The notes beneath the pieces were generated by a model. It ran no database searches and was not told the origin of the DNA. It worked only from the letters and a program-made list of their open reading frames with translations. From positions 1-29,344 of IMG/VR virus record IMGVR_UViG_3300027763_000179: a stretch of 29,344 nucleotides of DNA, one strand, 5' to 3'. The DNA comes from a virus. The translations under genes and the position numbers were made by a program. Shown in pieces: positions 6,282-29,344 of the stretch (position 1 is the first letter of the stretch; every line of letters starts with the position of its first letter).

Positions 6282-6580
6282 TGGCCATTTATGATGCAAC
6301 CAGCCCTTATTTCGATACCGGCTATACTCAATTTTTTCTTGACGTAATGATCAATAGACCTATACCCAAAGAAAACGACGATTTGCAATTCACCATCAAC
6401 ACAACATATCAATACAGACCAGACTTGCTGGCATTTGACTTGTATGGCAATGCCACACTATGGTGGGTGTTTTATCAACGCAATCCCAACTCATTACAAG
6501 CACCACCTTTGGACTTCAAACAAGGTGTGCAAATTTTTCTACCAAAAATCACAACGCTGAAATCAGCCTTGGGGTTCTAA
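6281..6580 (+). CDS. 53: Baseplate wedge protein gp53, compact form
   Basis: 99-residue wedge subunit. The diagnostic segment is residues 44-70: RPDLLAFDLYGNATLWWVFYQRN, followed by P.DF..G..I.LP. This LysM-like pattern (Tyr-Gly, Leu-Trp-Trp, Asn-Pro, Gly, Leu-Pro) is shared by gp53 and the phage tail X/LysM proteins. The N-terminus SPYFDTGYTQFFLDVMINRPIP is typical of a baseplate-docking arm. It is shorter than T4 gp53 (about 196 residues by memory), so only the core is kept. It starts in a one-base overlap with the upstream stop and ends 3 nt before the next ATG. Confidence 0.8.
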   Translation: MAIYDATSPYFDTGYTQFFLDVMINRPIPKENDDLQFTINTTYQYRPDLLAFDLYGNATLWWVFYQRNPNSLQAPPLDFKQGVQIFLPKITTLKSALGF

Positions 6581-6583
6581 CCC

Positions 6584-9952: not shown

Positions 9953-9962
9953 AGGATAATAA

Positions 9963-11498
9963 ATGACAGAAAGTGTACAACGCAGTCGAGGACGCCCCAG
10001 TAACTACAAACTAGATCGTGGTGGAGTACCTGCTGAATTTGGGCCATTTACGGGCATAGTAATGAGCACAGTAGATCCCACAAGGTCAGGTAGACTTCGT
10101 GTTTTTATTGATGCATTTGCTACTGGCACAACAGCAAATGAAATAGATAATGACGCACAGTGGACCACGGTGAGTTACCTACCATCATTTTTTGGTAATA
10201 CACCACTTTCGGCCATTGCAGAAACAGGTGGTACTACAGACAGTATTGGTTCATATCCAGGCAACCCTACCAGTTACGGCATGTGGTTTACTCCGCCTGA
10301 CGTGGGAGTAACTGTGGTATGTATTTTTGTCAATGGTGACCGTAGTCAAGGATTTTACATTGGAGTAGTTCCAGAACAAGGACTGGGACAAATGGTTCCG
10401 TCCCTGGGCTCCGCACCCAAATTCAAAGCCGAAGTACAAAATCAAAATCAAGAAACATATTTTGCCGATGCACCTAATTTGCCAGTCACTGAAATAAACA
10501 TTGACAATGTTGACGTGTTCAATGATCCAAGATTTTTTGATCAAACAAAACCTGTGAACAGTTACCTAGGGCAAGCATTATTGCAACAAGGATTGATAAA
10601 CGATACCGAACGTGGCGCAATACAAAGTTCAAGTCAGCGAGAAACTCCCAGTGCGGTGTTTGGTATTAGTACCCCTGGTATACCCATCTTTCAAGGTGGC
10701 ATGAGTCCCAATGATATTCGTCAAAAATTAAATGCTGGGGAAATTTCACCCAAGCAAGCTCAAGTGATTGGACGTGTGGGCGGTCATAGTTTGATAATGG
10801 ACGATGGTGATCTTGATGGCAACACCGCCATGCTAAGATTGCGTACTAGCCTAGGCCATCAAATCACCATGAGCGATACTGGAAACTTTTTTTATATTAT
10901 TCATGCCAACGGACAAACTTGGTTGGAGTTTGGGGTAGAAGGTACTGTCGATGTGTATGCCACAAACAGTGTAAACATACGTACCAAAGGCGATATTAAT
11001 CTGCATGCTGATCGGGATATTAACATGTTTGCTGGACGCTACTTAAAAATGAAAAGCAAAGAAGACATGCAGTTAGAAACAGATACATTCTTGAGTGTGC
11101 AGGCACAAGATGATATTACATTGTACAGCAAAAATACAATTGGGGTCAAAGCAGACGGTACACTTACATTGAACAGTTCGTCGGGCTCGTGGGGTGCAGG
11201 TTCTGCCCTGGTGCTAGAAGCAGGCGGAATTGATCTTAATGGTGCGTCTGCTGGAGCAGTTAACAACCCACAACCACTGACCACAACACTACTAGACGAC
11301 ACAGAATGGGATACCAGCAAAGGCTGGATCGTAAAACCCGAAGGACTTGAAAGTACTGTGAGTCGGGCTCCTACACACGAACCTTATCCGTATCATAACA
11401 AAGGGGTTGACGTTGAAGTCAAGTTTGAAGAAGGCAAACCCAGTCCGCCACCAGGTGCAGTACCAGTGCCAGCTGGCGTAGAAATACAGGCAAAATAA
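9963..11498 (+). CDS. 5: Baseplate central spike gp5 (OB-fold plus beta-helix, no lysozyme)
   Basis: Membrane-piercing spike at the hub tip. The N-terminal OB-fold is at about 26-135: FGPFTGIVMSTVDPTRSGRL, then SYGMWFTPPDVGVTVVCIFV and QGFYIGVVPEQGLGQMVP. A linker with RETPSAVFGISTPG and a helical KLNAGEISPKQAQVIGR follows. From 273 the VgrG-like domain begins (GGHSLIMDDGDLDGNTAMLR), and from about 300 to 425 a triple-stranded beta-helix repeats short strands (VDVYATNSVNIRTKGDINLH, INMFAGRYLKMKSKEDMQL). T4 gp5 carries a lysozyme domain between the OB-fold and helix; here only about 135 linker residues are present and no lysozyme motif is seen. 511 residues. AAAGG at 9951-9955 precedes the ATG by 7 nt. 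Confidence 0.9.
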   Translation: MTESVQRSRGRPSNYKLDRGGVPAEFGPFTGIVMSTVDPTRSGRLRVFIDAFATGTTANEIDNDAQWTTVSYLPSFFGNTPLSAIAETGGTTDSIGSYPGNPTSYGMWFTPPDVGVTVVCIFVNGDRSQGFYIGVVPEQGLGQMVPSLGSAPKFKAEVQNQNQETYFADAPNLPVTEINIDNVDVFNDPRFFDQTKPVNSYLGQALLQQGLINDTERGAIQSSSQRETPSAVFGISTPGIPIFQGGMSPNDIRQKLNAGEISPKQAQVIGRVGGHSLIMDDGDLDGNTAMLRLRTSLGHQITMSDTGNFFYIIHANGQTWLEFGVEGTVDVYATNSVNIRTKGDINLHADRDINMFAGRYLKMKSKEDMQLETDTFLSVQAQDDITLYSKNTIGVKADGTLTLNSSSGSWGAGSALVLEAGGIDLNGASAGAVNNPQPLTTTLLDDTEWDTSKGWIVKPEGLESTVSRAPTHEPYPYHNKGVDVEVKFEEGKPSPPPGAVPVPAGVEIQAK

Positions 11499-11499
11499 C

Positions 11500-13500: not shown

Positions 13501-13505
13501 CCTCC

Positions 13506-13513
13506 CATAAATA
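13506..13513 (+). promoter_or_regulatory. T4-type late promoter octamer upstream of gp25
   Basis: CATAAATA at 13506-13513, followed by CC, matches the T4 late octamer TATAAATA at seven of eight positions. It lies in the 17-bp gap between the 666-aa gene and gp25. The expected start site (about 6 nt downstream) falls at the gp25 ATG itself (13518). Confidence 0.6.
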
Positions 13514-13517
13514 CCAT

Positions 13518-13895
13518 ATGGCACAAACATTCATTGGATTCAACACACAAAATCAATACAAAAAGTTTACACTCACGGATTTTGCTTTGGTAAAACGTGA
13601 TTTGCTTAATGCATTTAACATACGTCAAGGGCAATTGCCTGGACGTCCAGCATATGGCACATCGTTGTGGGATTTTTTGTTTGAGGCTCAACTTGAAGAT
13701 TTAAACACTGCTATAGTGAATGAAGTACAAAGAGTAGCCGGTGGTGACCCTAGGATTTATATCAATGATGTACAAAGTTACCCCCAGGAAAACGGTATAT
13801 TAATTGAAATTGAATTGACCGTGGTACCCAGCACTGATGCCGAAAGATTAAGTATTTTCTTTGATTTGCAACAACGCAATGCCTCTTATGTATAA
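13518..13895 (+). CDS. 25: Baseplate wedge protein gp25
   Basis: 125-residue wedge subunit of the GPW/gp25 family, which sits at the base of the sheath and nucleates it. Typical features are the helix FTLTDFALVKRDLLNAFNIR (17-36), the RPAYGTSLWDFLFEA segment (43-57, matching the family's FG..L...LF.. motif), a long helix, the conserved (E/D)PR motif as DPR (77-79), and the terminal beta pair (ILIEIELTVVP). The length is close to T4 gp25. No Shine-Dalgarno lies just upstream of the ATG; GGAGAGG is about 28 nt away. A late promoter ends 5 nt before the ATG, so translation may be leaderless or reinitiated. gp6 follows after 48 nt, the usual gp25-gp6 (P2 W-J) order. Confidence 0.92.
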   Translation: MAQTFIGFNTQNQYKKFTLTDFALVKRDLLNAFNIRQGQLPGRPAYGTSLWDFLFEAQLEDLNTAIVNEVQRVAGGDPRIYINDVQSYPQENGILIEIELTVVPSTDAERLSIFFDLQQRNASYV

Positions 13896-13914
13896 AGTAG
13901 CCGTTTTTAATATC

Positions 13915-13922
13915 CATAAATA
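13915..13922 (+). promoter_or_regulatory. T4-type late promoter octamer upstream of gp6
   Basis: CATAAATA at 13915-13922 matches seven of eight late-octamer positions. The expected start is near 13928, and AGAGG (13929-13933) stands 10 nt before the gp6 ATG at 13944. It lies in the 48-bp non-coding gap after gp25. Confidence 0.6.
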
Positions 13923-13943
13923 AAACATAGAGGCTCAATACAA

Positions 13944-16900
13944 ATGGCAAAAACCACAAGACAAACAGCGATATTTGGTGTAGAGGATTGGAAACAAATC
14001 TACCAAACCTATCGCGAAGCTGATTTTCAAAGTTATGATTTTGAAACACTACGTAAAAGTTTTGTTGATTATCTGCGTTTGTACTATCCAGAAACATTCA
14101 ACGACTACATTGAATCAAGCGAATACATTGCCTTACTAGATGTTATGGCATTTATGGGGCAAGCACTGGCTTTCCGCACAGACTTAAACACTCGCGAAAA
14201 TTACATGGACACAGCTGAACGTAGAGATTCAGTTGTGCGTTTGGCAAACTTGGTAAGTTATACTGCCAAACGCAACATTGCCGCACAAGGGTTACTCAAA
14301 GTATTTTCGGTTACCACAACAGAAAATCTAGTGGATTATAATGGTGTAAATCTTAGCAACATTACTGTGGATTGGGCCGACCCCACAAACCCAGACTGGC
14401 AAGAGCAATTTACCACAATTATAAATGCCAGTTTAGTAGACACACAAAAAATTGGCAGACCGGGCAACCGTCAAACAATGCTTGGTGTACGCACAGACGA
14501 ATATGCAATTAATTTAGTTCCAGGATATTTGCCAGTTGTTCCTTATACTGCCACAGTGGATGGGGTGAGCATGCCTTTTGAGGCAATGACTTCAACCTCA
14601 GTTGGCGAAAATTATTTGTACGAACCCCCACCACGACCCAATCAACCTTTTAATATTTTATTTCGTAATGACAGTTTAGGATTTCAGTCATCCAACACTG
14701 GTTATTTCTTCATGTTCAAACAAGGCATATTACAAAATCAAGATTTTAACTTAGGTGAACGAGTGAGCAATCGCACAGTCAATATCAATATCGAAGGTGT
14801 TAACAATGAAGACCGTTGGCTGTTTCAACTAGACAATGTTGGCAACATAAATCGTGAATGGCAATATAGTGAAAACATTTATGCCGCTGGTGGCGAACAA
14901 ATAGCCACCAGCACTCGTCCCATATACTCAGTAACTTCAAGAACCAATGATCAAATTACCATGGTGTTTGGTGATGGCGTATTCTCAGAAATTCCCGTAG
15001 GTACATTTCGGGCGTATGTACGTGCTAGTAACGGATTGCAATATATTATCAATCCAGAAGAAATGCAGTCTGTAAATATTCCTATCAGTTACATTAGTCG
15101 TGCTGGTAATCTTGAAACAATGACATTCACTTGTGGTATCACAAGACCTGTTAGCAACAGTCAGGCACGTGAAAGCATTGACGCTATTAAACAACGTGCC
15201 CCTGCTAGATACTACACACAAAATCGCATGGTCAATGGCGAAGACTATAATCTTTTTCCATACACTCAATATAACAGTATTGTAAAATCCAAGGCATTGA
15301 ACCGTGCAAGCATTGGAACTAGTCGTTATCTTGACCTAGTAGACAACACAGGCAAATATTCAAGCACAAATATATTTGGCAGTGATGGTGGATTGTGGGA
15401 AGAAAATATATTACCTACAATTTTATTCTCTTGGACCAACCGTAATGAAATTTCTGATTTGGTTACCAATCAAATACAACCAAAAATAGCAGAAACTTTG
15501 ATGCGGCAATTTTATTATGCAAATTTCCCCAGGGTCACATCCACCACATTGCCGACGGCCGTCACTTGGTTACCTAACACAACCTGGAATCAAAGCACAA
15601 CATTAGCCAACGAAACCACAGGCTATTTTAAAAATGCCGCAGGAACACCAATACCAATTGGATCAACTACCACAACACAATTTAAGTATGCTGTGGTAGG
15701 AAGTTTAATTAAATTTGTTCCGCCCACTGGCTACTACTTTGACAAAAATAACAAACTACAACAAGGTACACCTACCAGTGCAGATCAGAAATTAGAAATT
15801 TGGGCCAGTCCATTGAGCATTCAAGGCACTGGATACAACAACGGTCTTGGTAACTTGTCTTCGGGTGCTGGACCGGTAGCACTGAATAATTTTGTTCCCA
15901 CAGGAGCATTGATCAACACAATTATTCCTTTGTTTGTAACTGATTTACCACAAAGTGTAGAACTATCTATAACTGAACAAATTTTATTAAATCGTAACTT
16001 TGGATTAGGGTACGATAACAACGGTGACATAACCGGAACACCATACTCGTGGTATGTAATTACCAGTACCAATTTAAACGCTGATGCTACGTGGAGTCAA
16101 ACATACGCTGGTAATACATCGGGCACCAATTTAGACGCCAGTTGGTTGATACAATTTGTAGTTCAGAATCAAAACTACACAATCACATTCCGCGGACTGT
16201 CCTATTTCTTTGGATCAGTATTGCAGACACGCTTTTTCTTCTACGATGGTTCTCCGATTTACGACAGCCGCACAGGCACTGTTATCAAGGACTACATCAA
16301 TTGTTTGGCGGTGAATACCCAACCAGATTCAACTGACCATTTGCCTGGCGATATCTACATGACCATAACTGGTCAACCAGTAGAAAGCGACGGCTATGTT
16401 GATGACTTCCAGGTCCTGGTAGGATATCGCGACAGTGACAATGATGGTGTACCGGACAACCCTGATTTCTTTAGTGAAATTGTTGCTCCAAGTACTAACC
16501 CAACACAAAAATATATTTACTTACAGAAGACTGTGGACTTTGACAACCTACAACGCTACCTATTGGTAGAGCCAGGAGTTGTTACCAGCGACTACGGCAC
16601 ATATGATGAGATTGAATTGGTAAAAAATTCTTGGACTCCGGGGCAAGTGTTCTATGCATATAGTCAAGTTAATACTAATAACACAGTGGGTGCATTTTAT
16701 CAACTCAGCGTTGGCGTAACTGGTGTTAGGACATTAATTGATGTCACAACCGAATGGATTGCTAGAACAGGACGTCAGGCATTGTATTTCCAATACAGAC
16801 ACAATGCACCGTTGACTGCACGTATTGATCCAGGCACCACAAACATTATTGATTTGTATGTGGTAACACTGGCATATTATACATCATATCAAAACTGGAT

Positions 16901-17414
16901 ACGTGACACAACTGGCAAAGTTGTTGAACCAGATATTCCTACCATTGATGAATTGTCAACTGCGTATCAGGGATTAGAAAATTATAAAATGATAAGCGAC
17001 AACATTGTTTTAAACTCTGTTGTGTTCAAACCTTTGTTTGGAGAAAAAGCCGCACAAAATCTTCGTGCCACAATCAAGGTCATACGTGCAAGCAATTCAA
17101 CTGCTAGTACCAGCGAAATCAAAAGTAGTGTAGTAGCCGCAATGAATACATATTTTAGTATTGACAAATGGAATTTTGGCGATACATTTTATTTCTCAGA
17201 ACTTGCGGCTTACTTGCATAGTCAACTGGGTACAATCATAAGTTCCGTGGTGTTGGTACCACTCAACAGTCAGAAATACTTTGGTGACTTGTACGAAATA
17301 CGTTCAGCACCCAATGAAATATTTGTTAACGGTGCCACAATCAACAATATTGACGTTATTGAAGCATTGACCAGTACCAACTTGCGTACTGCACCCGGTA
17401 GTGGAGTAATTTAA
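13944..17414 (+). CDS. 6: Baseplate wedge protein gp6 (gpJ-like), enlarged
   Basis: Main wedge scaffold linking neighbouring baseplate wedges. The N-terminal third matches gp6: FGVEDWKQIYQTYREADFQS, ESSEYIALLDVMAFMGQALA, an N.RENYMDTAERRDSVVRLA segment, and SYTAKRNIAAQG. The central J-like part follows: QITMVFGDGVFSEIPVGTFR, then RESIDAIKQRAPARYYTQ and VNGEDYNLFPYTQYNSIVKS. The C-terminal J domain is visible as KWNFGDTFYFSELAAYLHSQ and SVVLVPLNSQKYFGDLYEIR. It has 1156 residues against about 660 in T4, with extra beta-rich material at about 510-950. Within that, DSDNDGVPDNPD (830-841) looks like a thrombospondin type 3/EF-type calcium loop. It overlaps the next gene by one base (TAATG). Confidence 0.9.
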   Translation: MAKTTRQTAIFGVEDWKQIYQTYREADFQSYDFETLRKSFVDYLRLYYPETFNDYIESSEYIALLDVMAFMGQALAFRTDLNTRENYMDTAERRDSVVRLANLVSYTAKRNIAAQGLLKVFSVTTTENLVDYNGVNLSNITVDWADPTNPDWQEQFTTIINASLVDTQKIGRPGNRQTMLGVRTDEYAINLVPGYLPVVPYTATVDGVSMPFEAMTSTSVGENYLYEPPPRPNQPFNILFRNDSLGFQSSNTGYFFMFKQGILQNQDFNLGERVSNRTVNINIEGVNNEDRWLFQLDNVGNINREWQYSENIYAAGGEQIATSTRPIYSVTSRTNDQITMVFGDGVFSEIPVGTFRAYVRASNGLQYIINPEEMQSVNIPISYISRAGNLETMTFTCGITRPVSNSQARESIDAIKQRAPARYYTQNRMVNGEDYNLFPYTQYNSIVKSKALNRASIGTSRYLDLVDNTGKYSSTNIFGSDGGLWEENILPTILFSWTNRNEISDLVTNQIQPKIAETLMRQFYYANFPRVTSTTLPTAVTWLPNTTWNQSTTLANETTGYFKNAAGTPIPIGSTTTTQFKYAVVGSLIKFVPPTGYYFDKNNKLQQGTPTSADQKLEIWASPLSIQGTGYNNGLGNLSSGAGPVALNNFVPTGALINTIIPLFVTDLPQSVELSITEQILLNRNFGLGYDNNGDITGTPYSWYVITSTNLNADATWSQTYAGNTSGTNLDASWLIQFVVQNQNYTITFRGLSYFFGSVLQTRFFFYDGSPIYDSRTGTVIKDYINCLAVNTQPDSTDHLPGDIYMTITGQPVESDGYVDDFQVLVGYRDSDNDGVPDNPDFFSEIVAPSTNPTQKYIYLQKTVDFDNLQRYLLVEPGVVTSDYGTYDEIELVKNSWTPGQVFYAYSQVNTNNTVGAFYQLSVGVTGVRTLIDVTTEWIARTGRQALYFQYRHNAPLTARIDPGTTNIIDLYVVTLAYYTSYQNWIRDTTGKVVEPDIPTIDELSTAYQGLENYKMISDNIVLNSVVFKPLFGEKAAQNLRATIKVIRASNSTASTSEIKSSVVAAMNTYFSIDKWNFGDTFYFSELAAYLHSQLGTIISSVVLVPLNSQKYFGDLYEIRSAPNEIFVNGATINNIDVIEALTSTNLRTAPGSGVI

Positions 17415-20400
17415 TGGCCAAGGTTCGTAGTGTAGATTTTCTTCCTGAAATATTTCAGACTGATGCCAACAAACAGTTTCTTGCAGCCACACTAGATCAG
17501 CTTATACAAGAGCCTAGTTTTAAAAAGTCACAAGGATTTATTGGCCGCACCGTAGGCCCTGGTGTCAATCCCAACGACAAATATGTAATTGAACCCACAG
17601 CCACACGAGCCAACTATCAACTTGAGCCCGGAGTAGTAAGTCTTGTTCCTGAAAATACCAACAAGATACAAAACGCTATTACCTATCCGGGCATGAATGA
17701 TGCTGTGGCATTTCAAGGTGGCAATGGCGACAGGCCAGATAGACTATACTCAAGTGAGTATTACACATGGGATCCGTTTGTTGATTTTGATACATTTGTA
17801 AATTTTAGCCAATATTTTTGGTTACCAGCAGGTCCCGACGTAGTTGACGTAGCGGCAGTGGTATCGCCGGTGTCGGAAAATTTTGTAGTGACTCGGGCCG
17901 AAAATGCATATTCTTTTTCGGGAGTTTATGGTGAAGATCCGGTCATTGAATTAATTCGCGGCGGCACGTACACTTTTCAAATAGCCCAAAATCCCAAAGA
18001 AACCATAACATACAGAGTTACCAACAACAGAACTCAAGCCTATGTAATCAACAGTCAAAACAATCCTGCACTTAGTCTAATTCGTGGCAACACCTATCAA
18101 TTTAATCTAACATTAACTGGAGCATTTCCATTCTGGATAAAAACTGCAGCCACCACAGGTGTAGGCGATAGTTATAATTCTGGCGTAACACGCAACGGAT
18201 CTTCTGTTGGGTTGGTAACATTTGTTGTGCCACAAGATGCACCAGACACACTTTATTACGCTAGTCAAGACCAATCCAACATGCAAGGTGTGTTGAATAT
18301 TGTAGATGCCACAGCTGGCAACGGACCTGAATTTTGGATACAATCAGAACCGGGCGTGTCAGGAACATTGCCCTACTCTCCCAACATCAGCAGTAGAGAT
18401 GTGTACGGTGTGGTCAATGATGGCACCGATCTTGGTACAATAACATTTAATGTGCCTTATACTGATGCACAAGCATTTTATTATAATCTTACTGACATTG
18501 GCACAATTGATTTAGTTACTGAACTAGATTACGATCAAATCAATAACCAACCATTGGTTGAATTCTTGATCGAATACGATGGAATTGATGATACTACCAA
18601 TCTCAATACCAGAACATTAATTTTTATTAACAATCCTGCCCTGGTTAACAAATACCAAATCACTTACGTCACTGTTGATGATGTGGTGTACCTTCAATTG
18701 ATTGATATCGGGATTATCAATCCCCTGGAAAAATTTACAATATTGTATGGCACAGTATACAGTAATACACAATGGTACAAAGATCCGGTTGACCTCTTTC
18801 AACAAATCCCACTATTAACAGCAATAGAAGATACTCTGTATTATCAAGACAGTGAAAATCCAGACCTAGTGGGTCGCATTAGATTGGTTGACGCTGATCA
18901 AACTGGCATAATTTATATTGATCAAATTCTGGGCAAAAAAACTTACACAGCTCCGAATGGAGTTGCATTTACCAATGGCCTCAAGGTAAGATTTACAGGA
19001 AATGTTGAGCCTGCTGTTTACGGATCAGGCACCACTAGTATTACGTGTACCGGTACTGAATACGGCACAAATTATATCACGTATGACAACACTAATACAT
19101 CTTTGTATGTGGGTCAAGAAATTGTATTTGTTGCCCCCACACTTGGCGGATTGGTGGCAGGACAAACTTATTATGTGAGATCAATTTCAGCTAACAATGT
19201 AAAATTCACAGTAAGCAGTATTCAGTACGGAGCAACACCTGTTGCATTATCAACTGCAACAGGATCAATGACAGCCAATGCTGTGGCCAATAGAGAATAC
19301 TATGTAAGCGGTGTGGGAACAGCAATTGAATTGTTGCCAACTAGTAGTCTTGATGTTTACGAAACTTATGCTGTAGATGCCGATACCACAACTGTTGTAA
19401 TTGAGCCAACACAACCGGACTATCTTACAATCAGTCGTGCCAGTAAAGATCTAAATGCATGGAGTCGCAGTAACCGCTGGTTTCACATTGATGTAATTAA
19501 TGCAACAGCTGAATATAACAATACCACCGCGGTGCTTGACAATAACTATCGAGCCAAACGTCCTATTATACAATTTAGATCTGGATTACGATTATGGGAC
19601 ATGGGCACAGACGGCAAAGCACCTGTGGACATTATTGATTTTACACAAACAGATGCATTTAGCAATGTTGAAGGTAGTGCTAGTTATTCCACAGATGGAT
19701 ATACATTTGTAGAAGGCACACGAGTAATTTTTGCCGCAGATGAAGATACTGATGTAAAAAATAAAATTTATGTTGTTAGTTTTGTTACGCCTGATACATC
19801 ACCTAATACCAATGCTGGCGACTTTTTGATAGGCGTACACTATAATATTTTAACACTTGGATCAACTGACTGGAATGCGGCCGCTGGAACTTCTGGAATA
19901 ACTTACGCAGTTGGCGACGGTTTTATCGCTGCCACTGCGGGATCTGGGTCAGGAACAGCCACAGTTGACGAACCAATTATTACATTGACCCAAGCACCTG
20001 ACGGAATAGTATTGCTTGATCAATCCACAGTTTGCCTTAATGGCAATACCAGTGCCGGACTTACCTATTGGTATGATGGTACTGATTGGATAGAAGCACA
20101 ACAAAAAACTGCAATCCAACAAGCACCACTTTTTAATATATACGATGTTGATGGTGTAAGTTTTGGAAACAAAGTAAAATATCAATCTTCAGACTTTACA
20201 GGATCAAAATTATTCAGTTATGCTGTGGGAGATACCACCATACTTGATCCAGTTTTGCAATTCCCGTTACAATATTTAAACATCAACAACGTTGGTGATA
20301 TTGTGTTTGACAACAACTTGTATGTTGATACGTTTACATACACTATAGATAATGTTAGTACTACCAGTGACATAAGTGCGGGTGCGGCACGTGAATATGC

Positions 20401-23400
20401 TGATAGAACCATTTATGCAAAATTAATTGGTTGGCAAACTGCTGTAGTTGAGCAACAAATTTATCAGCAATTTAAATTTACATACGACGGTTCTCCTCTT
20501 AAACTTGACATTGCTACCACGCCGCAAACATCTATTGCAGTTCCTGTAATTAAAATATATGTAGGTAGTCAATTTGTTGACCCATCATTATATACCTATG
20601 TGATTGGTACTGATAATACTGTTATTACATTAACAAACACTTATGTTCCAACCGATATCATTGAAGTGTTGGCACTAAGCGATCAAACAAGCAAAGTGGC
20701 ATTTTATCAAGTGCCAAATAATCTTGACAGTAATCCTCTCAATGCCAATAGCTCTGCATTTACTTTGGGCACAATTCGCACACATTACGAAAGTATTTGC
20801 CAAAATTTGTTGACAGTAACTGGTAAAATTAACGGTGCTAATAACACTCGAGATCTTGGTGATATTGTTCCTTATGGCCTAGTAATACTACAACAAAGTT
20901 CGCCATTGACTCTAGCCGGCTATTTCATGCGTAGTCCAGCTTACAATATTTTTGCCAGTTTGCAATTTAACGGTCGTGAATACATTAAATTTAAAGCACA
21001 AATGTTAGATGCAGTTTTAACACAACAAAACATTGCGTTTAAAACAACAGCTGAAATTCTTAACACTGCCATAGCCGATATCACCCTGGGAAAACTTGAC
21101 ACGCAACCATTTTACTGGAGTGACATGATCCCGGCCAGTGTGCCATACGCTACAAATTCTTACACAGTGGGATATACTACACAACCCACATTTGACACAG
21201 TACAAGTATACAACTACGAGTCAGCCAACTACCTTGGCATGTGTGTGTATCTAAATGATGAAATTTTAACACGTGGTCTTGATTATGAAGTTGCCATCAA
21301 CGGCCCACGATTGACAATACTCATAACATTAGCACTGGGAGATGTTGTAACTATAAATGAATACAATGCCACTTATGGTAATTTTGTACCCAACACTCCA
21401 ACCAAGTTGGGACTATACCCTGCATGGCAACCGGCTGTACTACCGCAATCAACCAGCAATGGTGTAGAAAACTTCACTCAAGGCCACGACGGTAGTATAA
21501 CTCCGTTGTTTGGAGACATACGTGATCAAGTGTTGTTGGAATTTGAAACTAGAATTTACAGCAATTTAAAACTTGATGGCAATCCAGTGCCACTAACAAT
21601 TGAAAATGTGTTACCAGGACAGTTTCGTACTACTGGATACACGTTTGAAGAAATCAATACAATATTTGCCCAGGACTTTTTGAGCTATTGCGGTTGGAAC
21701 AAACTGGATTACAGTCAACAAACTTACAAAGCCACCAATGAGTTCACCTGGAACTACAGCAATTCACAAAGCAAACTAGACAAACAAAACTTGCTGGGTG
21801 CCTGGCGTGGAATCTATAGATATTACTATGATACACAACAACCCAGTTATACTCCTTGGGAGATGTTGGGTTTTGCAATTGAACCCACGTGGTGGGAAAA
21901 TAGATATGGTCCAGCACCGTACACACAAGACAACTTGGTATTGTGGGACGACTTGGCCGCAGGCTACGTAGCAGATCCTGTTGTACCATATTATAAACCA
22001 GAATATGCTAGACCAGGTTTAACTTCTGTTATTCCCACAGGGACCGAGGGCGAATTATTAAGCCCGTTCAACAGTGTGGTTGGTGTTGCATTTAATGATT
22101 ACAATGCTGGCTCACAATTTAATAAAAGTTGGGCCATAGGCGACGGCGGCCCAGTTGAAGCGTCATGGTGGAATAGTTCAGCATACCCATTCTCGGTCAT
22201 GCATGTGCTGGCAGTTACTCGCCCAGCAGAATTCTTTGCATTGTTTGCTGATCGAGATTTATACAAGTTTGATACAGATTACAATCAGTATTTGTACAAC
22301 GGTCGTTACAGATTAAATGCCAATCAACTTGAAATTTATGGCGATGGCGTCAGCAAAGCCAGCTATATTGATTGGATTGTGGATTTTAATCGTCAATCTG
22401 GAATCAATAGTACCCAAGCCCTTACCGCCGATCTTGACAATCTTGACGTGAGATTGTGTTACCGCATGGCCAGTTATTCGGACAAGCAATATATTAAATT
22501 ATACACTGAAAAATCCAGTCCCAATAGTACCAATAACACATTGATGATTCCAGACGAGAGTTACAATATTGTTTTGTATAAAAATCAGCCATTTGATCGA
22601 ATTGTTTATAGTTCAGTAGCAATACAAAAAGTATCCGGCGGATATGCGGTATTTGGATACGGAACTACACAGCCATATTTTAATATATTACAAAGTCAAG
22701 CAGTTGGTAGATTGCAAGAATACAGCTCTGGCGGAATTACTGTTAGAGTTCCAACTTTCTATAGTGATAATGTGGTTCAAGTACCATATGGATTTATTTT
22801 CAGCAACGAAACCGCAGTTAGTGATTTCTTGTTGAGTTATGGCAAATTGCTAGAAAATCAAGGACTTACTTTTGACAATATCTCAGAAAATAACTATGTC
22901 TTGGATTGGTCAAGAATGGTTGATGAATTCTTATATTGGAGCCAGCAGGGGTGGAATACAGATGCGATTATCAATTTAAATCCATTGGCCGCTAAATTAA
23001 CAGTAACACGCCCTGGTGCAGTAGTTGATAGCATTGTGACCGAGACCAGCGAAAATTTATTGTTGGACCAGAATTCAAGAGAATTACCAACTCGCACTCT
23101 CAATATTGTTCGTATAGACAATACATTTGTTATACAGCCATTGAGCACTCAAACAATTAGTTTTATTGATTTGAAATTTACAAATTTTGAACACATGATT
23201 GTGTTGAACAATCGCAGTGTGTTTGGCGATCTAATTTATGATCCCACAACAGGTGCTAGACAAAGTCGTCTAACCCTTGTGGCGGTGACCACTGCTGACT
23301 GGAATGGAACACTTGACACTCCAGGTTTTATTTTAAACCAAGACAATGTGGAAGAATGGACAGGTTTACGCACCTATAGCAAGGGAGAAATTGTCAAATA

Positions 23401-26400
23401 CAAGAATGTGTATTGGTCTGCTCTAAAGATAGTCCAACCAACTGAAAATTTTGATTTCAATGATTGGGTGCAAAGCGACTATACACAAATAGAACTTGGG
23501 TTGTTGCCTAACTTGGCCAACAAAGCCAATCAATTGTCCAACAGTTACAATATCAATACCGCCAATATCGAACTTGACAACGATCTATTGGCATACGGAT
23601 TGATTGGATACAAGCCTAGACAATACTTGGCCGCGTTAAACCTTGACGACGTTAGTCAAGTTAACATATATCGACAGTTCCTTGATACCAAGGGCACTAT
23701 CCTTGCGGCAGAATTATTTAAATCGGCCAACCTTGGCAAAGAAGCAGCCGATTATAGCATATATGAAAATTGGGCAGTACAACGAAGTGTGTATGGTGCC
23801 AATGCTAATCGCAGTTTTTTTGAACTTCGTTTAAATCGTGCATTGCTAGATGCCAACCCCAGTCTGGTTCAAGTGGTGTTACCACAACAAACAAGTTCAG
23901 CAGATCAACAAATACTACTAAGTGATGTTTGGAGACAGAGTTATAAACTCACAAGTCCTGATATTTTACCAACCACGACAGAATTACCTACCGATACTGG
24001 CTTGCCTTCAGCAGGATATGTAAGTCTTGATGATGTTGATATCACAGTGTTTGATATCAATAGCACAGCCAGTTTAAGTGCCAACATAGATGCAATTCAA
24101 GTTGGTACCAGTATATGGGTGGCCAAGATCAATGATTATGATTGGAACATTTACCGTGCTCAAGCAGTACCTGGACAAATACAACACGTATGTGATAATT
24201 TAAACGGCACCAGCCGTGTGATCTTTAGCGGTAATCATGGCCTGGTTGCTGGCGACAAGTTAATTATTAAATTCTTTGATATTGAAGTCAACGGGGTATA
24301 TCAAGTATTATCAGTATTAAATTTAACCACAGTAAACATTGCATTTGCGTTTAGTGGCAATAGATCAGTAGCAAACGGTACTGGCCTGGGATTCACATTG
24401 CAAACCATGCGTGTTGCACAGGCAAGCGATGTACTTACATTACCATATGCCAATGACATTTTGCCCGGTGCAAGAGTTTGGGTAGACAACAACGGCAGTG
24501 GGTTGTGGGAAGTATTGCAAAAGAACACAGTATTTTCAGATGTTATTTCTCTTTATCCAGCATTGTTAGATGCCGGCGAACAATATGGTGCCAGTGTATC
24601 ACAAGCAAGAAATCGAACAGCGGCCTTAGTCGGCAGTCCCAAATACGGATTTGGTGTAGGCATTGAAAAAGGCGGATTATATTTGTATGTTAAAAACTAC
24701 AGCGATCAGTACACCCCCGTAAGCCCAGTGTCCGGTGGAGATGCGGTACTCACACTAGATGTCACTGGTGTGCGTGGTTATGGTAATGCTATAGATTTTG
24801 GCAATCAAACCTGGGCAGTGGCCGGTGCAAGCAAAAGTCTAGGGTCTGGCAGCCAAGCCAACAATGGATATGCCAGTGTTATATATCGTGATCCTGCTCG
24901 AGGACAACCCGGGGTAGTACCGTTTGCACAATGGCAGTTGTTGACACAACCTGCTGGATACGGAACACTACTAACTGGTGCTGGTGAGTTTGGTTATAGT
25001 GTGGCCATGAGTCTTGACGAACGTTGGATGTATATTGGTGCACCTGGATTGAATAGTGTACACGCTTATGGTCGGGTTGATTGGCAAAATCAATTTATAC
25101 GAGTTAGGGGTAACGGAGCCACAACAGCATACACCATTAACGACACCATACAAATCAACAACTCGAGCCAAATCAAGATAACACTAGACGGGCAATTGCA
25201 AACAGTTGGTGTTAATTATACTGTCAACGGTTCTTTTAGCACTGTTACTTTTGTCACACCACCCGCTGATGGTGTGCTGATAGATATTTCTAGATATTAT
25301 GCATTTCAAATCCCAGCAACATCTGCTACGTTCAATTTGTCTAACGGAATAGACGCAAGCGGCAATGCTGTGGGAATTTTCACAGCCACAAACATATATT
25401 CATTTAGCATTACTGTAAATGATGCATTATGGCGGCCAAATATTGATTACACATTTGCTGGTACCACAGTGACTTTTATCACAGCAAGAGCACCTAGTGA
25501 TGTTGTGGTTGTAAACGCACAAAGTTATTTTGAATATGTAGATACCATCGACACATCAAGTGTATCAGGCGGACTCACTGCAGGTGATCAATTTGGTGAT
25601 GCAATTTCTTGTACCACTGATGGTAGACAAGTTATAATTGGAACACCAGACAGCACAGTTGACGGCAAAACTGAAGCTGGTGCTGTTTATGTGTTTGATC
25701 GCAATGTACAAACATTCATCAAGAACGATGATTCAAGCAATGCTTACATAGTTCTTGGCACAGTTACTGGACCGGTTAGTGTAATTGTTAATAATCAATT
25801 TTTAATTAATCAAACCGACAGCACGATTGGTGCTGCCAATTCGTTTACTGTATCTGGAAATACTATTAATATCAATGCAGATTTAATAATTGGCGACACT
25901 ATTCAAATTGAAACCAATCAATTTAGTTTGATACAACAAGTGGATCAAAACACAGTGGCCGAATTCTGTAATTTTGGGCAAGCGGTAGACATCTGCGCCA
26001 ACAACTGTAGTCTATATGTAGGCGAACCACAAAGCAGTCAACAAATTTTCAAAGGCGGCGTAGTTGAACGTTTTGTAAATCAAAGTCGTGTCTATGGCAC
26101 AATTACTGCCACTGTGGCTAATCCTGTGCTCACCGCTGGCAACACTATTCGAATTAACAACATTGATGTAGAAGTTCCTGCTAGTGATCCAACTGTGCAA
26201 GGACTAGCAGATCAAATCAACGGTGTTCCGGTAGGATCACAAACTGGTGTACAAAATGTTCTAGCCACAGTCAGTGCTACAGGATACCTTACAATATCAA
26301 TTAAAAATCCTGATGCGGCTCCACAATTTAACAAATTACAAGTGGCACCGGGCACTGTGGGCACAACATTTGACGATTTAGGATTTGATACATTCGCTTG

Positions 26401-29344
26401 GACACAAACAATTGAAAGTCCATATCCTACAGAATATGCTGGATTTGGTAGCAGTCTCAGTATTGATGACTCGGCTGTTAATCTAGTGGTCGGAGCACCC
26501 AAAGGAACTATCTATCTTGAAACTGAATTTGATGACGGTACCACAATCTTTGACGTTGGTAGTACTGTGTTCTTTTCAATAATTATACAAAGCGGTGCAA
26601 TATACACATACGATTATTTGCCCAGTTCAACCTTGGTCATTACCAATCCGGGCAAGTTTGTTTTTGGACAACAGATCAACAACAGTGACGTGGCACCGTA
26701 TGATGGATTTGGTACTTCGGTTAATTACACATCGGGTGTGGTCATGGCCGGAGCACCTAAAAATGATTACGGTGATAGCTCAGCTGATTTTGGTTCAGTG
26801 TTTGTGTTTGAAAACACCACCGGCACCCTTGCATGGACAGTGACCAACATACAACAGCCCACCGTGGACATACGTTTATTAAACTCGGTATTTTTGTATG
26901 ATAGAATTACTGGAGCCAGAACTGAATTTTTAGATTTTATTAATCCGTTACAAGGCAAGATACTTGGTGCCGCCAAACAAAATATTGATTATATTGGTGC
27001 CGTTGATCCTGCCTCATACAACATAGGTCCGGTAAATGTTCGTGGAACTACTTGGTTTGGTGAGCGTGTGGGTGAAGTTTGGTGGGATATATCAACAGTT
27101 AGATTTATCGATCCCAATCAAGACAACATCACATACGCTAGTCGTCGCTGGGCACAAATATTCCCAGGAAGTGTAATTGATGTTTACCAATGGGTATACA
27201 GTCCAGTACCTCCGGTACAGTACAATGGAGAAGGCACACCTTACAACACATTCAGTTATACTGTAAACACTAGACTCACGTTAGATGGCACATTCGCCAC
27301 AGAATATTATTTCTGGGTGCGAGACATCACAGTTACCGCAACCAAACTTGGAAAAACACTACCAGTAAGTACCATAGCATCGTACATAACTAATCCACGT
27401 GCGTCAGGCATTCCGTACATGGCACCAATCAATGCTAGTACCATAGCTCTTTATAACAGCGGAGATTACATTGAAGCCAGTGACACAATTATTAATATTG
27501 AATTTGATCAGCAATTAACTGATGCTGACGTTCACGTTGAGTACGAATTAATACCACAAGATCGTCCTGATGGATTCTTGAGTGATATATTGTATCGCAA
27601 ACTACAAGACAGTTTCTGTGGCGTAGACACATTTGGTAATCAAGTGCCTGATCCAAGACTGGGTCCTGCTGAAAGATACGGAGTACAATTCCGCCCAAGA
27701 CAAAGTATGTTTGTGGATCGCTTTGCGGCATTGAAAAACTATCTTGTGAGATGCAACACAGTTTTAAGTCAGTATCCTGTTAGCGAAAATAGATCATTCA
27801 ATTTGTTGAACAGCAGTCAAGCAGAACCGATGCAAACTGAAACTGTTAACGGAGTTACTATTACAAATTGGAATTTACGTATAGCTAATTTAGAAATACT
27901 AGGTTTTCAAACACCGTTCTGGAGCAATACCAGCGGGCCAATACCATTAGGATACAAATACCTTGTGACGACTGACAGCAGTCAGCGTGGGTTGTGGACA
28001 ATTTATACTGTTGAAGCAAGCGATGTTTCGGCCTCTGGCAGAATGCTAGTATTAACCAAAGTGCAAGGTTATAATACTCCTGACTATTGGAATTACATTG
28101 ATTGGTACCGCCCTGGTTATAATTCCAGCACCAAGGTTGTGGCAGAAGTCTCCACATACTCTGCATTGGCCACGCTTACAGTTCCTGTAGGCAGTAGTGT
28201 CAAGGTCACGGCCAATGCACAAGGCAAGTTTGAAATTTATTTAAAAACTGATCTAGGTTGGGAACGTGTTGGACTACAAGATGGTACTATTGAATTTTCA
28301 GCAGAATTATGGGATTACGCATTAGGACGATTTGGTTTTGACGTCGAAGTATTTGACGCACAATATTTTGATCAGGAACCTGTTACCGAAACACGTAAAA
28401 TTATACAGGCCATTAACGAAGAGTTGTTTGTAAATGAACTAGCAATTGAACGCAATCGTGCATTAGTATTAGTATTTAATTTTGTATTGAGTGAATTTTC
28501 AGCACCTGAATGGCTGGTCAAAACCAGCTTGATTGATGTGGATCACAGAATACGTGAATTGATACCTTATCAAAATTACATAAGAGACAATCAAGAATTT
28601 GTTAGTGATTACATTCAAGAAGTTAAACCGTATCACGTTAGCATTCGAGAATTTAATTTAAAATACGCAGGGTTTGATGAATTCTTTGGTGATACCACTG
28701 ATTTTGACTTGCCTGCATATTACAATACTTCACTAGACATACCAGCATATACCAGCCCAATTTTATTACCATATGATCACGGTACTGCATCTGGTGCATC
28801 AATTAATGATTTAAGTGATTTGCCAGCAACTAGTACAGTATGGACAACATGGCCATACAATCAATGGTACAATAATTATCTATTAAATTTGATAAGCATA
28901 CGAATAATAGACGGTGGATTGGGGTACGCCCAAGCTCCTTTGGTTATTATTTCTGGAGATGCCGAAACTCCAGCCACGGCTGTGGCAATAATCAATGCTG
29001 TTACGGGCGTAGTAACTAGTGTAGATATAACTTATGCAGGATCAGGATATACCACAACTCCCACAATAACATTTGATGGTGGCAACGGTACTAATCGTAT
29101 GGCAACCGCTTATGCGGTCATGAATTATAACTTGAGTACAAACATGTATGCCGGACTTGTGCGTAGTATCAAGACTACCATGAAGTTTGATCGTTTCCAA
29201 TATTTCTCAGACGTATCAGATTGGAGTGCAAACGGCACGTATCAGGATGGTACTCTAGTGCGGTATGAAGATCGTGTGTATCAAGCTGCCAGTCAGGACT
29301 CCACCGCAGTGGTTGGTCCAACATTTAATCTTGAAGACTGGAAC
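17414..29344 (+). CDS. Giant virion structural protein, at least 3977 aa, 3' end beyond window (probable wedge/tail-fibre element)
   Basis: Open in one frame from ATG 17414 to the right edge (3977 codons, no stop met; frame confirmed at eleven spaced landmarks). It occupies the place of T4 gene 7 after gp6, but I see no clear gp7 homology. The N-terminus SVDFLPEIFQTDANKQFLAA with IQEPSFKKSQGFIGR looks like a baseplate-docking helix pair. Domains in order: EYYTWDPFVDF (115); a cupredoxin-like fold (217-298) lacking most copper ligands; beta-rich modules; GHDGSITPLFGDIRDQVLLE (1357); a W/Y module (1981-2020); a seven-blade FG-GAP propeller (2390-3135); EVKPYHVSIREF (3736); two GGxGY repeats (3829-3890); a second W/Y module (3936 to edge). 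GGAG lies 7 nt before the ATG. A wedge/fibre role and host-surface binding are inferred from position and domain types. Confidence 0.85.
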   Translation, partial: MAKVRSVDFLPEIFQTDANKQFLAATLDQLIQEPSFKKSQGFIGRTVGPGVNPNDKYVIEPTATRANYQLEPGVVSLVPENTNKIQNAITYPGMNDAVAFQGGNGDRPDRLYSSEYYTWDPFVDFDTFVNFSQYFWLPAGPDVVDVAAVVSPVSENFVVTRAENAYSFSGVYGEDPVIELIRGGTYTFQIAQNPKETITYRVTNNRTQAYVINSQNNPALSLIRGNTYQFNLTLTGAFPFWIKTAATTGVGDSYNSGVTRNGSSVGLVTFVVPQDAPDTLYYASQDQSNMQGVLNIVDATAGNGPEFWIQSEPGVSGTLPYSPNISSRDVYGVVNDGTDLGTITFNVPYTDAQAFYYNLTDIGTIDLVTELDYDQINNQPLVEFLIEYDGIDDTTNLNTRTLIFINNPALVNKYQITYVTVDDVVYLQLIDIGIINPLEKFTILYGTVYSNTQWYKDPVDLFQQIPLLTAIEDTLYYQDSENPDLVGRIRLVDADQTGIIYIDQILGKKTYTAPNGVAFTNGLKVRFTGNVEPAVYGSGTTSITCTGTEYGTNYITYDNTNTSLYVGQEIVFVAPTLGGLVAGQTYYVRSISANNVKFTVSSIQYGATPVALSTATGSMTANAVANREYYVSGVGTAIELLPTSSLDVYETYAVDADTTTVVIEPTQPDYLTISRASKDLNAWSRSNRWFHIDVINATAEYNNTTAVLDNNYRAKRPIIQFRSGLRLWDMGTDGKAPVDIIDFTQTDAFSNVEGSASYSTDGYTFVEGTRVIFAADEDTDVKNKIYVVSFVTPDTSPNTNAGDFLIGVHYNILTLGSTDWNAAAGTSGITYAVGDGFIAATAGSGSGTATVDEPIITLTQAPDGIVLLDQSTVCLNGNTSAGLTYWYDGTDWIEAQQKTAIQQAPLFNIYDVDGVSFGNKVKYQSSDFTGSKLFSYAVGDTTILDPVLQFPLQYLNINNVGDIVFDNNLYVDTFTYTIDNVSTTSDISAGAAREYADRTIYAKLIGWQTAVVEQQIYQQFKFTYDGSPLKLDIATTPQTSIAVPVIKIYVGSQFVDPSLYTYVIGTDNTVITLTNTYVPTDIIEVLALSDQTSKVAFYQVPNNLDSNPLNANSSAFTLGTIRTHYESICQNLLTVTGKINGANNTRDLGDIVPYGLVILQQSSPLTLAGYFMRSPAYNIFASLQFNGREYIKFKAQMLDAVLTQQNIAFKTTAEILNTAIADITLGKLDTQPFYWSDMIPASVPYATNSYTVGYTTQPTFDTVQVYNYESANYLGMCVYLNDEILTRGLDYEVAINGPRLTILITLALGDVVTINEYNATYGNFVPNTPTKLGLYPAWQPAVLPQSTSNGVENFTQGHDGSITPLFGDIRDQVLLEFETRIYSNLKLDGNPVPLTIENVLPGQFRTTGYTFEEINTIFAQDFLSYCGWNKLDYSQQTYKATNEFTWNYSNSQSKLDKQNLLGAWRGIYRYYYDTQQPSYTPWEMLGFAIEPTWWENRYGPAPYTQDNLVLWDDLAAGYVADPVVPYYKPEYARPGLTSVIPTGTEGELLSPFNSVVGVAFNDYNAGSQFNKSWAIGDGGPVEASWWNSSAYPFSVMHVLAVTRPAEFFALFADRDLYKFDTDYNQYLYNGRYRLNANQLEIYGDGVSKASYIDWIVDFNRQSGINSTQALTADLDNLDVRLCYRMASYSDKQYIKLYTEKSSPNSTNNTLMIPDESYNIVLYKNQPFDRIVYSSVAIQKVSGGYAVFGYGTTQPYFNILQSQAVGRLQEYSSGGITVRVPTFYSDNVVQVPYGFIFSNETAVSDFLLSYGKLLENQGLTFDNISENNYVLDWSRMVDEFLYWSQQGWNTDAIINLNPLAAKLTVTRPGAVVDSIVTETSENLLLDQNSRELPTRTLNIVRIDNTFVIQPLSTQTISFIDLKFTNFEHMIVLNNRSVFGDLIYDPTTGARQSRLTLVAVTTADWNGTLDTPGFILNQDNVEEWTGLRTYSKGEIVKYKNVYWSALKIVQPTENFDFNDWVQSDYTQIELGLLPNLANKANQLSNSYNINTANIELDNDLLAYGLIGYKPRQYLAALNLDDVSQVNIYRQFLDTKGTILAAELFKSANLGKEAADYSIYENWAVQRSVYGANANRSFFELRLNRALLDANPSLVQVVLPQQTSSADQQILLSDVWRQSYKLTSPDILPTTTELPTDTGLPSAGYVSLDDVDITVFDINSTASLSANIDAIQVGTSIWVAKINDYDWNIYRAQAVPGQIQHVCDNLNGTSRVIFSGNHGLVAGDKLIIKFFDIEVNGVYQVLSVLNLTTVNIAFAFSGNRSVANGTGLGFTLQTMRVAQASDVLTLPYANDILPGARVWVDNNGSGLWEVLQKNTVFSDVISLYPALLDAGEQYGASVSQARNRTAALVGSPKYGFGVGIEKGGLYLYVKNYSDQYTPVSPVSGGDAVLTLDVTGVRGYGNAIDFGNQTWAVAGASKSLGSGSQANNGYASVIYRDPARGQPGVVPFAQWQLLTQPAGYGTLLTGAGEFGYSVAMSLDERWMYIGAPGLNSVHAYGRVDWQNQFIRVRGNGATTAYTINDTIQINNSSQIKITLDGQLQTVGVNYTVNGSFSTVTFVTPPADGVLIDISRYYAFQIPATSATFNLSNGIDASGNAVGIFTATNIYSFSITVNDALWRPNIDYTFAGTTVTFITARAPSDVVVVNAQSYFEYVDTIDTSSVSGGLTAGDQFGDAISCTTDGRQVIIGTPDSTVDGKTEAGAVYVFDRNVQTFIKNDDSSNAYIVLGTVTGPVSVIVNNQFLINQTDSTIGAANSFTVSGNTININADLIIGDTIQIETNQFSLIQQVDQNTVAEFCNFGQAVDICANNCSLYVGEPQSSQQIFKGGVVERFVNQSRVYGTITATVANPVLTAGNTIRINNIDVEVPASDPTVQGLADQINGVPVGSQTGVQNVLATVSATGYLTISIKNPDAAPQFNKLQVAPGTVGTTFDDLGFDTFAWTQTIESPYPTEYAGFGSSLSIDDSAVNLVVGAPKGTIYLETEFDDGTTIFDVGSTVFFSIIIQSGAIYTYDYLPSSTLVITNPGKFVFGQQINNSDVAPYDGFGTSVNYTSGVVMAGAPKNDYGDSSADFGSVFVFENTTGTLAWTVTNIQQPTVDIRLLNSVFLYDRITGARTEFLDFINPLQGKILGAAKQNIDYIGAVDPASYNIGPVNVRGTTWFGERVGEVWWDISTVRFIDPNQDNITYASRRWAQIFPGSVIDVYQWVYSPVPPVQYNGEGTPYNTFSYTVNTRLTLDGTFATEYYFWVRDITVTATKLGKTLPVSTIASYITNPRASGIPYMAPINASTIALYNSGDYIEASDTIINIEFDQQLTDADVHVEYELIPQDRPDGFLSDILYRKLQDSFCGVDTFGNQVPDPRLGPAERYGVQFRPRQSMFVDRFAALKNYLVRCNTVLSQYPVSENRSFNLLNSSQAEPMQTETVNGVTITNWNLRIANLEILGFQTPFWSNTSGPIPLGYKYLVTTDSSQRGLWTIYTVEASDVSASGRMLVLTKVQGYNTPDYWNYIDWYRPGYNSSTKVVAEVSTYSALATLTVPVGSSVKVTANAQGKFEIYLKTDLGWERVGLQDGTIEFSAELWDYALGRFGFDVEVFDAQYFDQEPVTETRKIIQAINEELFVNELAIERNRALVLVFNFVLSEFSAPEWLVKTSLIDVDHRIRELIPYQNYIRDNQEFVSDYIQEVKPYHVSIREFNLKYAGFDEFFGDTTDFDLPAYYNTSLDIPAYTSPILLPYDHGTASGASINDLSDLPATSTVWTTWPYNQWYNNYLLNLISIRIIDGGLGYAQAPLVIISGDAETPATAVAIINAVTGVVTSVDITYAGSGYTTTPTITFDGGNGTNRMATAYAVMNYNLSTNMYAGLVRSIKTTMKFDRFQYFSDVSDWSANGTYQDGTLVRYEDRVYQAASQDSTAVVGPTFNLEDWN
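18062..18307 (+). other. Cupredoxin-like domain with lost copper ligands (in the giant gene)
   Basis: Residues 217-298. The pattern NPALSLIRGNTYQFNL, FPFWIKT (238-244), GDSYNSGVTRNG, then FVVPQDAPDTLYYAS and NMQGVLNIVD follows the cupredoxin-like module I know from marine phage proteins, where the ligand motifs are HPF and YYxCxxHxxM. Here the His is Phe238, the Cys is Ser284, the His is Gln287, and only Met290 remains. The fold appears kept without metal binding. Confidence 0.6.
23354..23473 (+). repeat. W/Y-rich carbohydrate-binding-like module, copy 1
   Basis: Residues 1981-2020: EWTGLRTYSKGEIVKY, then NVYWSA and ending FNDW. The pattern W-x5-Y-x2-G-x(I/L)V-x-Y-x3-(V/Y)(Y/W)-x-A resembles the small CBM5/12-type fold. 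It pairs with the module at 29219-29344. Confidence 0.6.
24581..26818 (+). other. Seven-blade FG-GAP (integrin-alpha-like) beta-propeller in the giant gene
   Basis: Seven copies of the FG-GAP pattern (aromatic-Gly, strand, then GxP or GAS, then a strand ending in Y/V-x-Y/F) occur in register. Blade starts by residue: 2390 (QYGASV, VGSPKY), 2455 (GYGNAI, AGASKS), 2525 (EFGYSV, IGAPGL), 2726 (QFGDAI, IGTPDS), 2853 (NFGQAV, VGEPQS), 3010 (GFGSSL, VGAPKG) and 3098 (GFGTSV, AGAPKN). Blades 4 and 7 close with GAVYVF and GSVFVF. Seven is the canonical blade number. Spacing is irregular because beta-modules are inserted, notably about 170 residues between blades 3 and 4 and about 120 between blades 5 and 6. 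Confidence 0.7.
28898..29083 (+). repeat. Two GGxGY beta-turn repeats in the giant gene
   Basis: Residues 3829-3849 (IRIIDGGLGYAQAPLVIISG) and 3870-3890 (VDITYAGSGYTTTPTITFDG) share the frame (I/V)xI-x3-G-x-GY-x3-P-x-(V/I)-x-(I/F). This short repeat is common in phage tail and fibre proteins and usually forms stacked beta-strands. Confidence 0.6.
29219..29344 (+). repeat. W/Y-rich carbohydrate-binding-like module, copy 2 (cut by edge)
   Basis: Residues 3936-3977: DWSANGTYQDGTLVRYEDRV, then YQAA and ending FNLEDW. It is aligned to copy 1 (residues 1981-2020) over its length, including the closing FN-x(0-2)-DW. The protein continues beyond the window, so further copies may follow. Confidence 0.6.

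Follow-up and report, generated by a model that had tools for sequence, protein, structure and literature searches.

The stretch of DNA analysed here, hereafter the window, comprises all 29,344 nucleotides at positions 1 to 29,344 of the viral record IMGVR_UViG_3300027763_000179 from IMG/VR. Its plus strand carries a contractile-tail baseplate block, running from a gp53-like protein through a 1,122-aa protein, a gp5-like hub, a 666-aa protein, a gp25-like and a gp6-like protein to a giant open reading frame (ORF) that is still open at the contig end (Table 1). The order gp53-gp5-gp25-gp6-giant is identical in RaK2, PBECO4, XaC1 and PA5oct, and the block, situated beside a late sigma factor and SbcCD-like genes, recurs in these four phages and in Vibrio phage 2.275, in a comparison where annotation is incomplete and some genes are unlabelled in individual phages. 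The full giant ORF is present, at 4,774-5,063 aa, in five long contigs (151-349 kb) from close relatives, and there it alone carries FG-GAP_2 among the matches listed.

Table 1. Features of the window, with the basis on which each was assigned
Feature	Position	Strand	Basis
gp53-like baseplate wedge subunit	6281..6580	+	phrog_7145, E=3e-23
gp5-like baseplate hub protein	9963..11498	+	phrog_13211, E=4e-37
gp25-like baseplate wedge subunit	13518..13895	+	PF04965, 29 bits, exceeds cut-off
gp6-like baseplate wedge subunit	13944..17414	+	phrog_10646, E=3e-281
Giant baseplate/virion structural protein, partial, 3977 aa in frame	17414..29344	+	homologues are 'virion structural protein' of giant phages; phrog_10938, E=7e-279
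Upstream chassis, conserved, residues 877-2248	20042..24157	+	BLASTP alignments; alignment A4; common to cultured giant phages
Chassis hairpin 'GARVWVDNNGSGLWEVLQKN', N side of insertion point	24431..24553	+	continuous with C side in propeller-less L145, L138, L121
Blade unit 1, FG at residue 2391	24554..24736	+	blade profile comparison and anchors
Blade unit 2, YG at residue 2456, lowest profile support	24737..24931	+	blade profile comparison and anchors
Blade unit 3, FG at residue 2526	24932..25081	+	blade profile comparison and anchors
Insert 3-4, small beta domain present twice, resembling the T7 tail-fibre N-terminal domain	25082..25534	+	hhalign copy a vs b 96%; PF03906
Blade unit 4, FG at residue 2727, best Pfam FG-GAP_2 stretch	25535..25714	+	Pfam
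Insert 4-5, small domain, replaced in L003	25715..25924	+	comparison with L003
Blade unit 5, FG at residue 2854	25925..26089	+	blade profile comparison and anchors
Insert 5-6, with a weakly flagellin-IN-like stretch; the insert exchanged most frequently	26090..26389	+	pair comparisons
Blade unit 6, FG at residue 3011, conserved long 2-3 loop (FDDGTTIFDVGSTVFF)	26390..26653	+	anchors
Blade unit 7, FG at residue 3099	26654..26830	+	blade profile comparison and anchors
Downstream chassis, conserved, from residue 3140	26831..28720	+	alignments with relatives

Homologues of the giant protein are virion structural proteins in PA5oct, RaK2, PBECO4, XaC1 and Atu_ph07; those of PA5oct, RaK2, PBECO4, XaC1 and Vibrio phage 2.275 have 3,300-4,450 aa, and that of PA5oct was detected in virions by ESI-MS/MS. 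Homology on both sides of the propeller, together with gene order, identifies the window protein as the giant baseplate protein of RaK2/PA5oct-like phages. An initial reading made from the sequence alone had spoken of a phage tail protein; the host of the propeller is the giant baseplate chassis protein following gp6 and no classic tail fibre. The ORF occupies the place of T4 gp7-gp9; its position after gp6 is the sole agreement with T4 gp7, and homology of the chassis to gp7 was rejected (hhalign probability 0.1-0.2%). Near the contig end lies a CBM_5_12-like carbohydrate-binding stretch (window 29222-29287, residues 3937-3958; 21 bits, below the cut-off of 26). In a 342 kb relative (L207, G001) the baseplate genes are followed downstream by at least four consecutive radical-SAM genes (9295-16653), two of them with SPASM domains, and a radical-SAM gene also lies near the baseplate block of Atu_ph07.

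Between the two conserved parts of the chassis stand seven FG-GAP motifs in one frame, each with 11-13 residues from FG to GAP, at the coordinates given by the sequence-only reading. Pfam FG-GAP_2 (PF14312) matches the module at E=2.9e-12 (47 bits against a cut-off of 23) and also all 54 of the relatives in alignment A2; PF01839 stays below its cut-off in the module (16.6 against 22.1, in blade 4). In profile-profile comparison, blades 1, 3, 4, 5, 6 and 7 are related to one another, at up to 96% probability, and none of these six matches an insert. In 47 or more of the 54 relatives, the leave-one-out HMMs of blades 1 and 3-7 each score above the best of 200 shuffles; that of blade 2 does so in only 4 of 54, and a seventh blade on profile evidence alone is unsupported. 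Blade 2 nevertheless aligns column by column with the others at the anchors common to all seven (a strand, FG, a short turn, GAP and GxVYxF), and the motifs occupy equivalent positions. A scan with the downstream chassis yielded 80 diverse loci, among which the count by an iterated blade HMM was exactly seven in almost every window-type propeller (eight in one) and seven, sometimes six, or five in truncated ORFs, in diverged ones: the blade count is constant at seven across large divergence and all insert loads. Blade 6 has a long 2-3 loop (TTFD...TTFD.xSTxF; window 26504-26590, residues 3031-3059) that can be recognised in almost all of the propeller clade, insert-free members included, and may be a fixed contact.

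The chassis aligns on both sides of the propeller site in carriers and non-carriers alike. In the latter the hairpin is unbroken, as in L145 ('YAYVDGTRDTPWKVYQKYGVWFEYRSENKKVDTKLL'); in carriers the propeller is flanked by 'VWVDN..W.V..K' and 'W....QQ..VD..L', and the conserved chassis parts, 101-230 aa apart without a propeller, are separated by 557-1,112 aa with one, the smallest propellers, which lack domain inserts, adding ~435 residues. A quickly built tree of the downstream chassis, in which some branches are long, separates the 55 carriers from the non-carriers by a single branch (support 97), showing one gain or one loss of the propeller followed by strict retention in the sampled loci; we infer that the direction was gain. 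The giant proteins of the cultured phages RaK2, PBECO4, XaC1, PA5oct, Atu_ph07 and SCTP-2 share the chassis with the window protein but have no propeller: RaK2, PBECO4, XaC1 and Vibrio phage 2.275 hold 112-170 aa at its site, and PA5oct, SCTP-2 and Atu_ph07 have other content there, that of Atu_ph07, like that of L128 and L165, being unrelated. A direct tblastn search of the window propeller against cultured phages gave no match. In nine relatives without FG-GAP (L128, L131, L136, L139, L165, L168, L178, L184 and L193), 560-860 residues of GSGY-type repeat domains occupy the same chassis site, which therefore itself accepts large modules.

The sequence-only reading had placed domains between the blades. 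Domain inserts are indeed present, but on the strand scheme of PMC3192720 they fall after beta3 (GxVYVF) and before beta4 (e.g. FAWTQTIESP), that is, within the beta3-beta4 hairpins of blades 3, 4 and 5 and not literally between blades; once beta3 and beta4 were placed in this way, the candidate position in the loop of the integrin alpha-I domain was dropped. On this sequence-based placement, the insert hairpins and the FG-GAP loops are on opposite sides of the propeller. The long insert with beta domains, put at 170 residues between blades 3 and 4, exists at a length of ~150 (residues 2557-2707). Its similarity to the T7 tail-fibre N-terminal domain (PF03906) is below the cut-off in the window (E=7e-4), with matches in 7 of 54 relatives, and weakly suggests an attachment domain, unlike a receptor binder in look; the chassis, too, has a weak copy of the same domain (10.8 bits, residues 1246-1319). 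The blade 3 hairpin is short in L141 and in L182 and L188 holds an insert of ~150 residues that is probably alpha-helical and has no Pfam match; the window clade has beta domains there. L153 has its inserts in other loops, and in L015, L018 and L019 the 2-3 loop of blade 4 is longer by 85 residues. Domain-sized inserts are absent altogether from many carriers (e.g. L141, L146, L189), so the inserts are not required.

Comparison of close relatives indicates how these inserts change. The window and L003 share ~96% DNA identity over ~3,600 codons, and identity falls deeply only once, to 62-65% in the inserts 4-5 and 5-6 (residues 2751-2950), blade 5 between them standing at ~80% and blade 6 back at 99%; a shallower dip, to 77%, lies at 3501-3550. 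Insert 5-6 is likewise the sole deep trough between L056 and L006. Conversely, L054 and L056 share this insert at 94% DNA identity against 64-84% elsewhere, the pattern expected from transfer. Across 45 close pairs, which are non-independent as one subclade dominates, sharp identity drops occur in insert 5-6 in 18%, in insert 4-5 in 7%, in insert 3-4 in 4%, in chassis windows in 3% and in blades in 0-2%; length changes of at least 15 residues affect insert 3-4 in 18%, insert 5-6 in 13% and blade 6 in 27%, the last tracing to its variable 2-3 loop. Inserts are thus exchanged by recombination, with most blades untouched. Average divergence is less contrasted: mean pairwise identity is 0.43-0.50 for insert 3-4, 0.58-0.61 for inserts 4-5 and 5-6 and 0.60-0.72 for blades. 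Of the expected excess of variability in inserts over blades, it is the more frequent replacement, resizing and recombinational swapping that stands; in average divergence insert 3-4 alone clearly exceeds the blades, inserts 4-5 and 5-6 being about equal to them. Loops on the FG-GAP face vary more than the 1-2 loops.

Perhaps the most coherent account of these patterns is that, in a clade of uncultured giant myoviruses, a complete seven-bladed FG-GAP propeller entered a surface hairpin of the giant baseplate protein encoded after gp6, where it would act as a rigid wedge scaffold. Small domains have been acquired in its beta3-beta4 hairpins, chiefly in blades 3, 4 and 5, and are replaced by recombination. 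The propeller would face outward, its inserts and the variable loops of the FG-GAP face touching a partner that differs from host to host, most likely the bacterial surface, and would serve as a secondary adhesion platform beside separate tail fibres. That the blade 3 hairpin holds unrelated domains in different lineages counts in favour of this account, to which we give slightly better than even credence. The platform for displaying receptor-binding modules imagined in the sequence-only reading survives in it as far as exchangeable domains on a seven-blade scaffold are concerned, and loses ground where insert 3-4 resembles an attachment domain.

The same propeller could instead work inside the baseplate, as a structural part or a dock that holds tail fibres, gp10-like pins or a neighbouring wedge, with inserts that are spacers or partner-specific docking domains and co-vary with those partners, not with host receptors. 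This is a serious possibility, if not the probable one: the propeller is kept universally within the clade, the giant gene directly follows gp6 and in PA5oct lies two genes ahead of one noted as gp10-like, and the likeness of inserts to the T7 tail-fibre N-terminal domain would suit a dock. Precedent is also available, since the nozzle protein of phage SU10, a seven-bladed propeller, has domains inserted between its blades 2 and 3 as well as a loop for docking fibres, and acts as fibre dock and nozzle (PMC9509320). Against docking, single inserts are sharply replaced in proteins otherwise 96% identical, which is more typical of contacts under host pressure. The inserted domains probably touch either the bacterial surface or other tail parts, and their exchange is most likely explained by host contact, docking of variable tail parts being the main rival.

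Known phage propellers, by analogy, support both roles, and the design, for which the sequence-only reading knew no described phage receptor-binding system, does have precedents. Besides SU10, the beta-propellers phiKZ gp131C and phi11 Gp45 occur in baseplates and have been proposed as receptor binders (PMC4901313). The SU10 or T7-type nozzle resembles the window protein as a phage tail protein whose seven-bladed propeller bears inserted domains, but it is a podovirus hexamer with inserts between blades 2 and 3, whereas the window has a myovirus baseplate chassis with exchangeable inserts in blades 3-5. In the passages of PMC4901313 that describe them, phiKZ gp131C and phi11 Gp45 are separate proteins, the latter with five blades, and exchangeable inserts are not among their features. 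Literature searches, mostly outside subscription journals, returned no account of FG-GAP propellers in phage tails or of this module.

The blade profile itself detects FG-GAP arrays in other phage proteins, all on a different chassis: gp054 of cyanophage S-TIM5 (407 aa, ~7 blades, a virion protein with no large inserts), S-MbCM6_080 of a Synechococcus phage (a 7,022-aa virion protein with FG-GAP repeats) and the many-repeat arrays of Sinorhizobium phage Phosso, which have no virion annotation. In Phosso (L195, 469 kb) two adjacent giant ORFs, at 6114-17192 (3,692 aa, ~39 blades) and 17266-26754 (3,162 aa, ~21 blades), amount to several propellers in a row.

As to fold, the relation to integrins proposed from the motif count is borne out. 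An insert-free profile (A6, 17 relatives), whose alignment to the window family has a probability of 100% and leaves gaps at the inserts, matched 27 PDB sequences, all of them integrin alpha chains (best integrin alpha-4, 3V4P, E=2.1e-15); searches of PDB sequences with the window alone, the whole protein, the chassis profiles A3 and A4, or A2 gave nothing significant. By sequence this is an integrin-type FG-GAP propeller, sharing with the N-terminal propeller of integrin alpha the profile match, seven FG-GAP/Cage-like repeats and an insert-free length of ~435 residues. It differs in its short FG-to-GAP spacing and in the site of its inserts, which occupy 3-4 hairpins; the integrin alpha-I domain lies between propeller blades 2 and 3. 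That the repeats form an open or split array with no closed ring is very improbable. The weakness of blade 2 by profile would fit such an array, but the count is constant at seven, the PDB matches are to integrin alpha propellers only, and the module ends must be close, as they join nearly adjacent chassis residues in non-carriers; on these three grounds a closed seven-blade ring is the predicted structure. Least probable of all is that the propeller acts enzymatically, or as an integrin-like adhesin that depends on ions bound at calcium sites: some propellers are enzymes and integrin-type ones bind calcium, but no enzyme family matches the module and, unlike integrin alpha, none of 90 phage propellers has a DxDxDG-type calcium motif.

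Returning to the reading of the propeller as a scaffold for host contact, one may tentatively suppose that in a large clade of uncultured giant phages the baseplate-wedge propeller is a fixed socket for plug-in host-contact domains, in which single-insert swaps would change contacts with the blade count and a 5,000-residue chassis held constant. Little is known of how giant phages that were never brought into culture recognise their hosts, and a fixed scaffold with naturally swapped inserts offers precise, testable candidates for host contact from sequence alone. The locus also brings the baseplate chassis of giant phages within the range of the integrin-related propeller family, and provides an example of a domain insertion long kept within a core machine of the phage.
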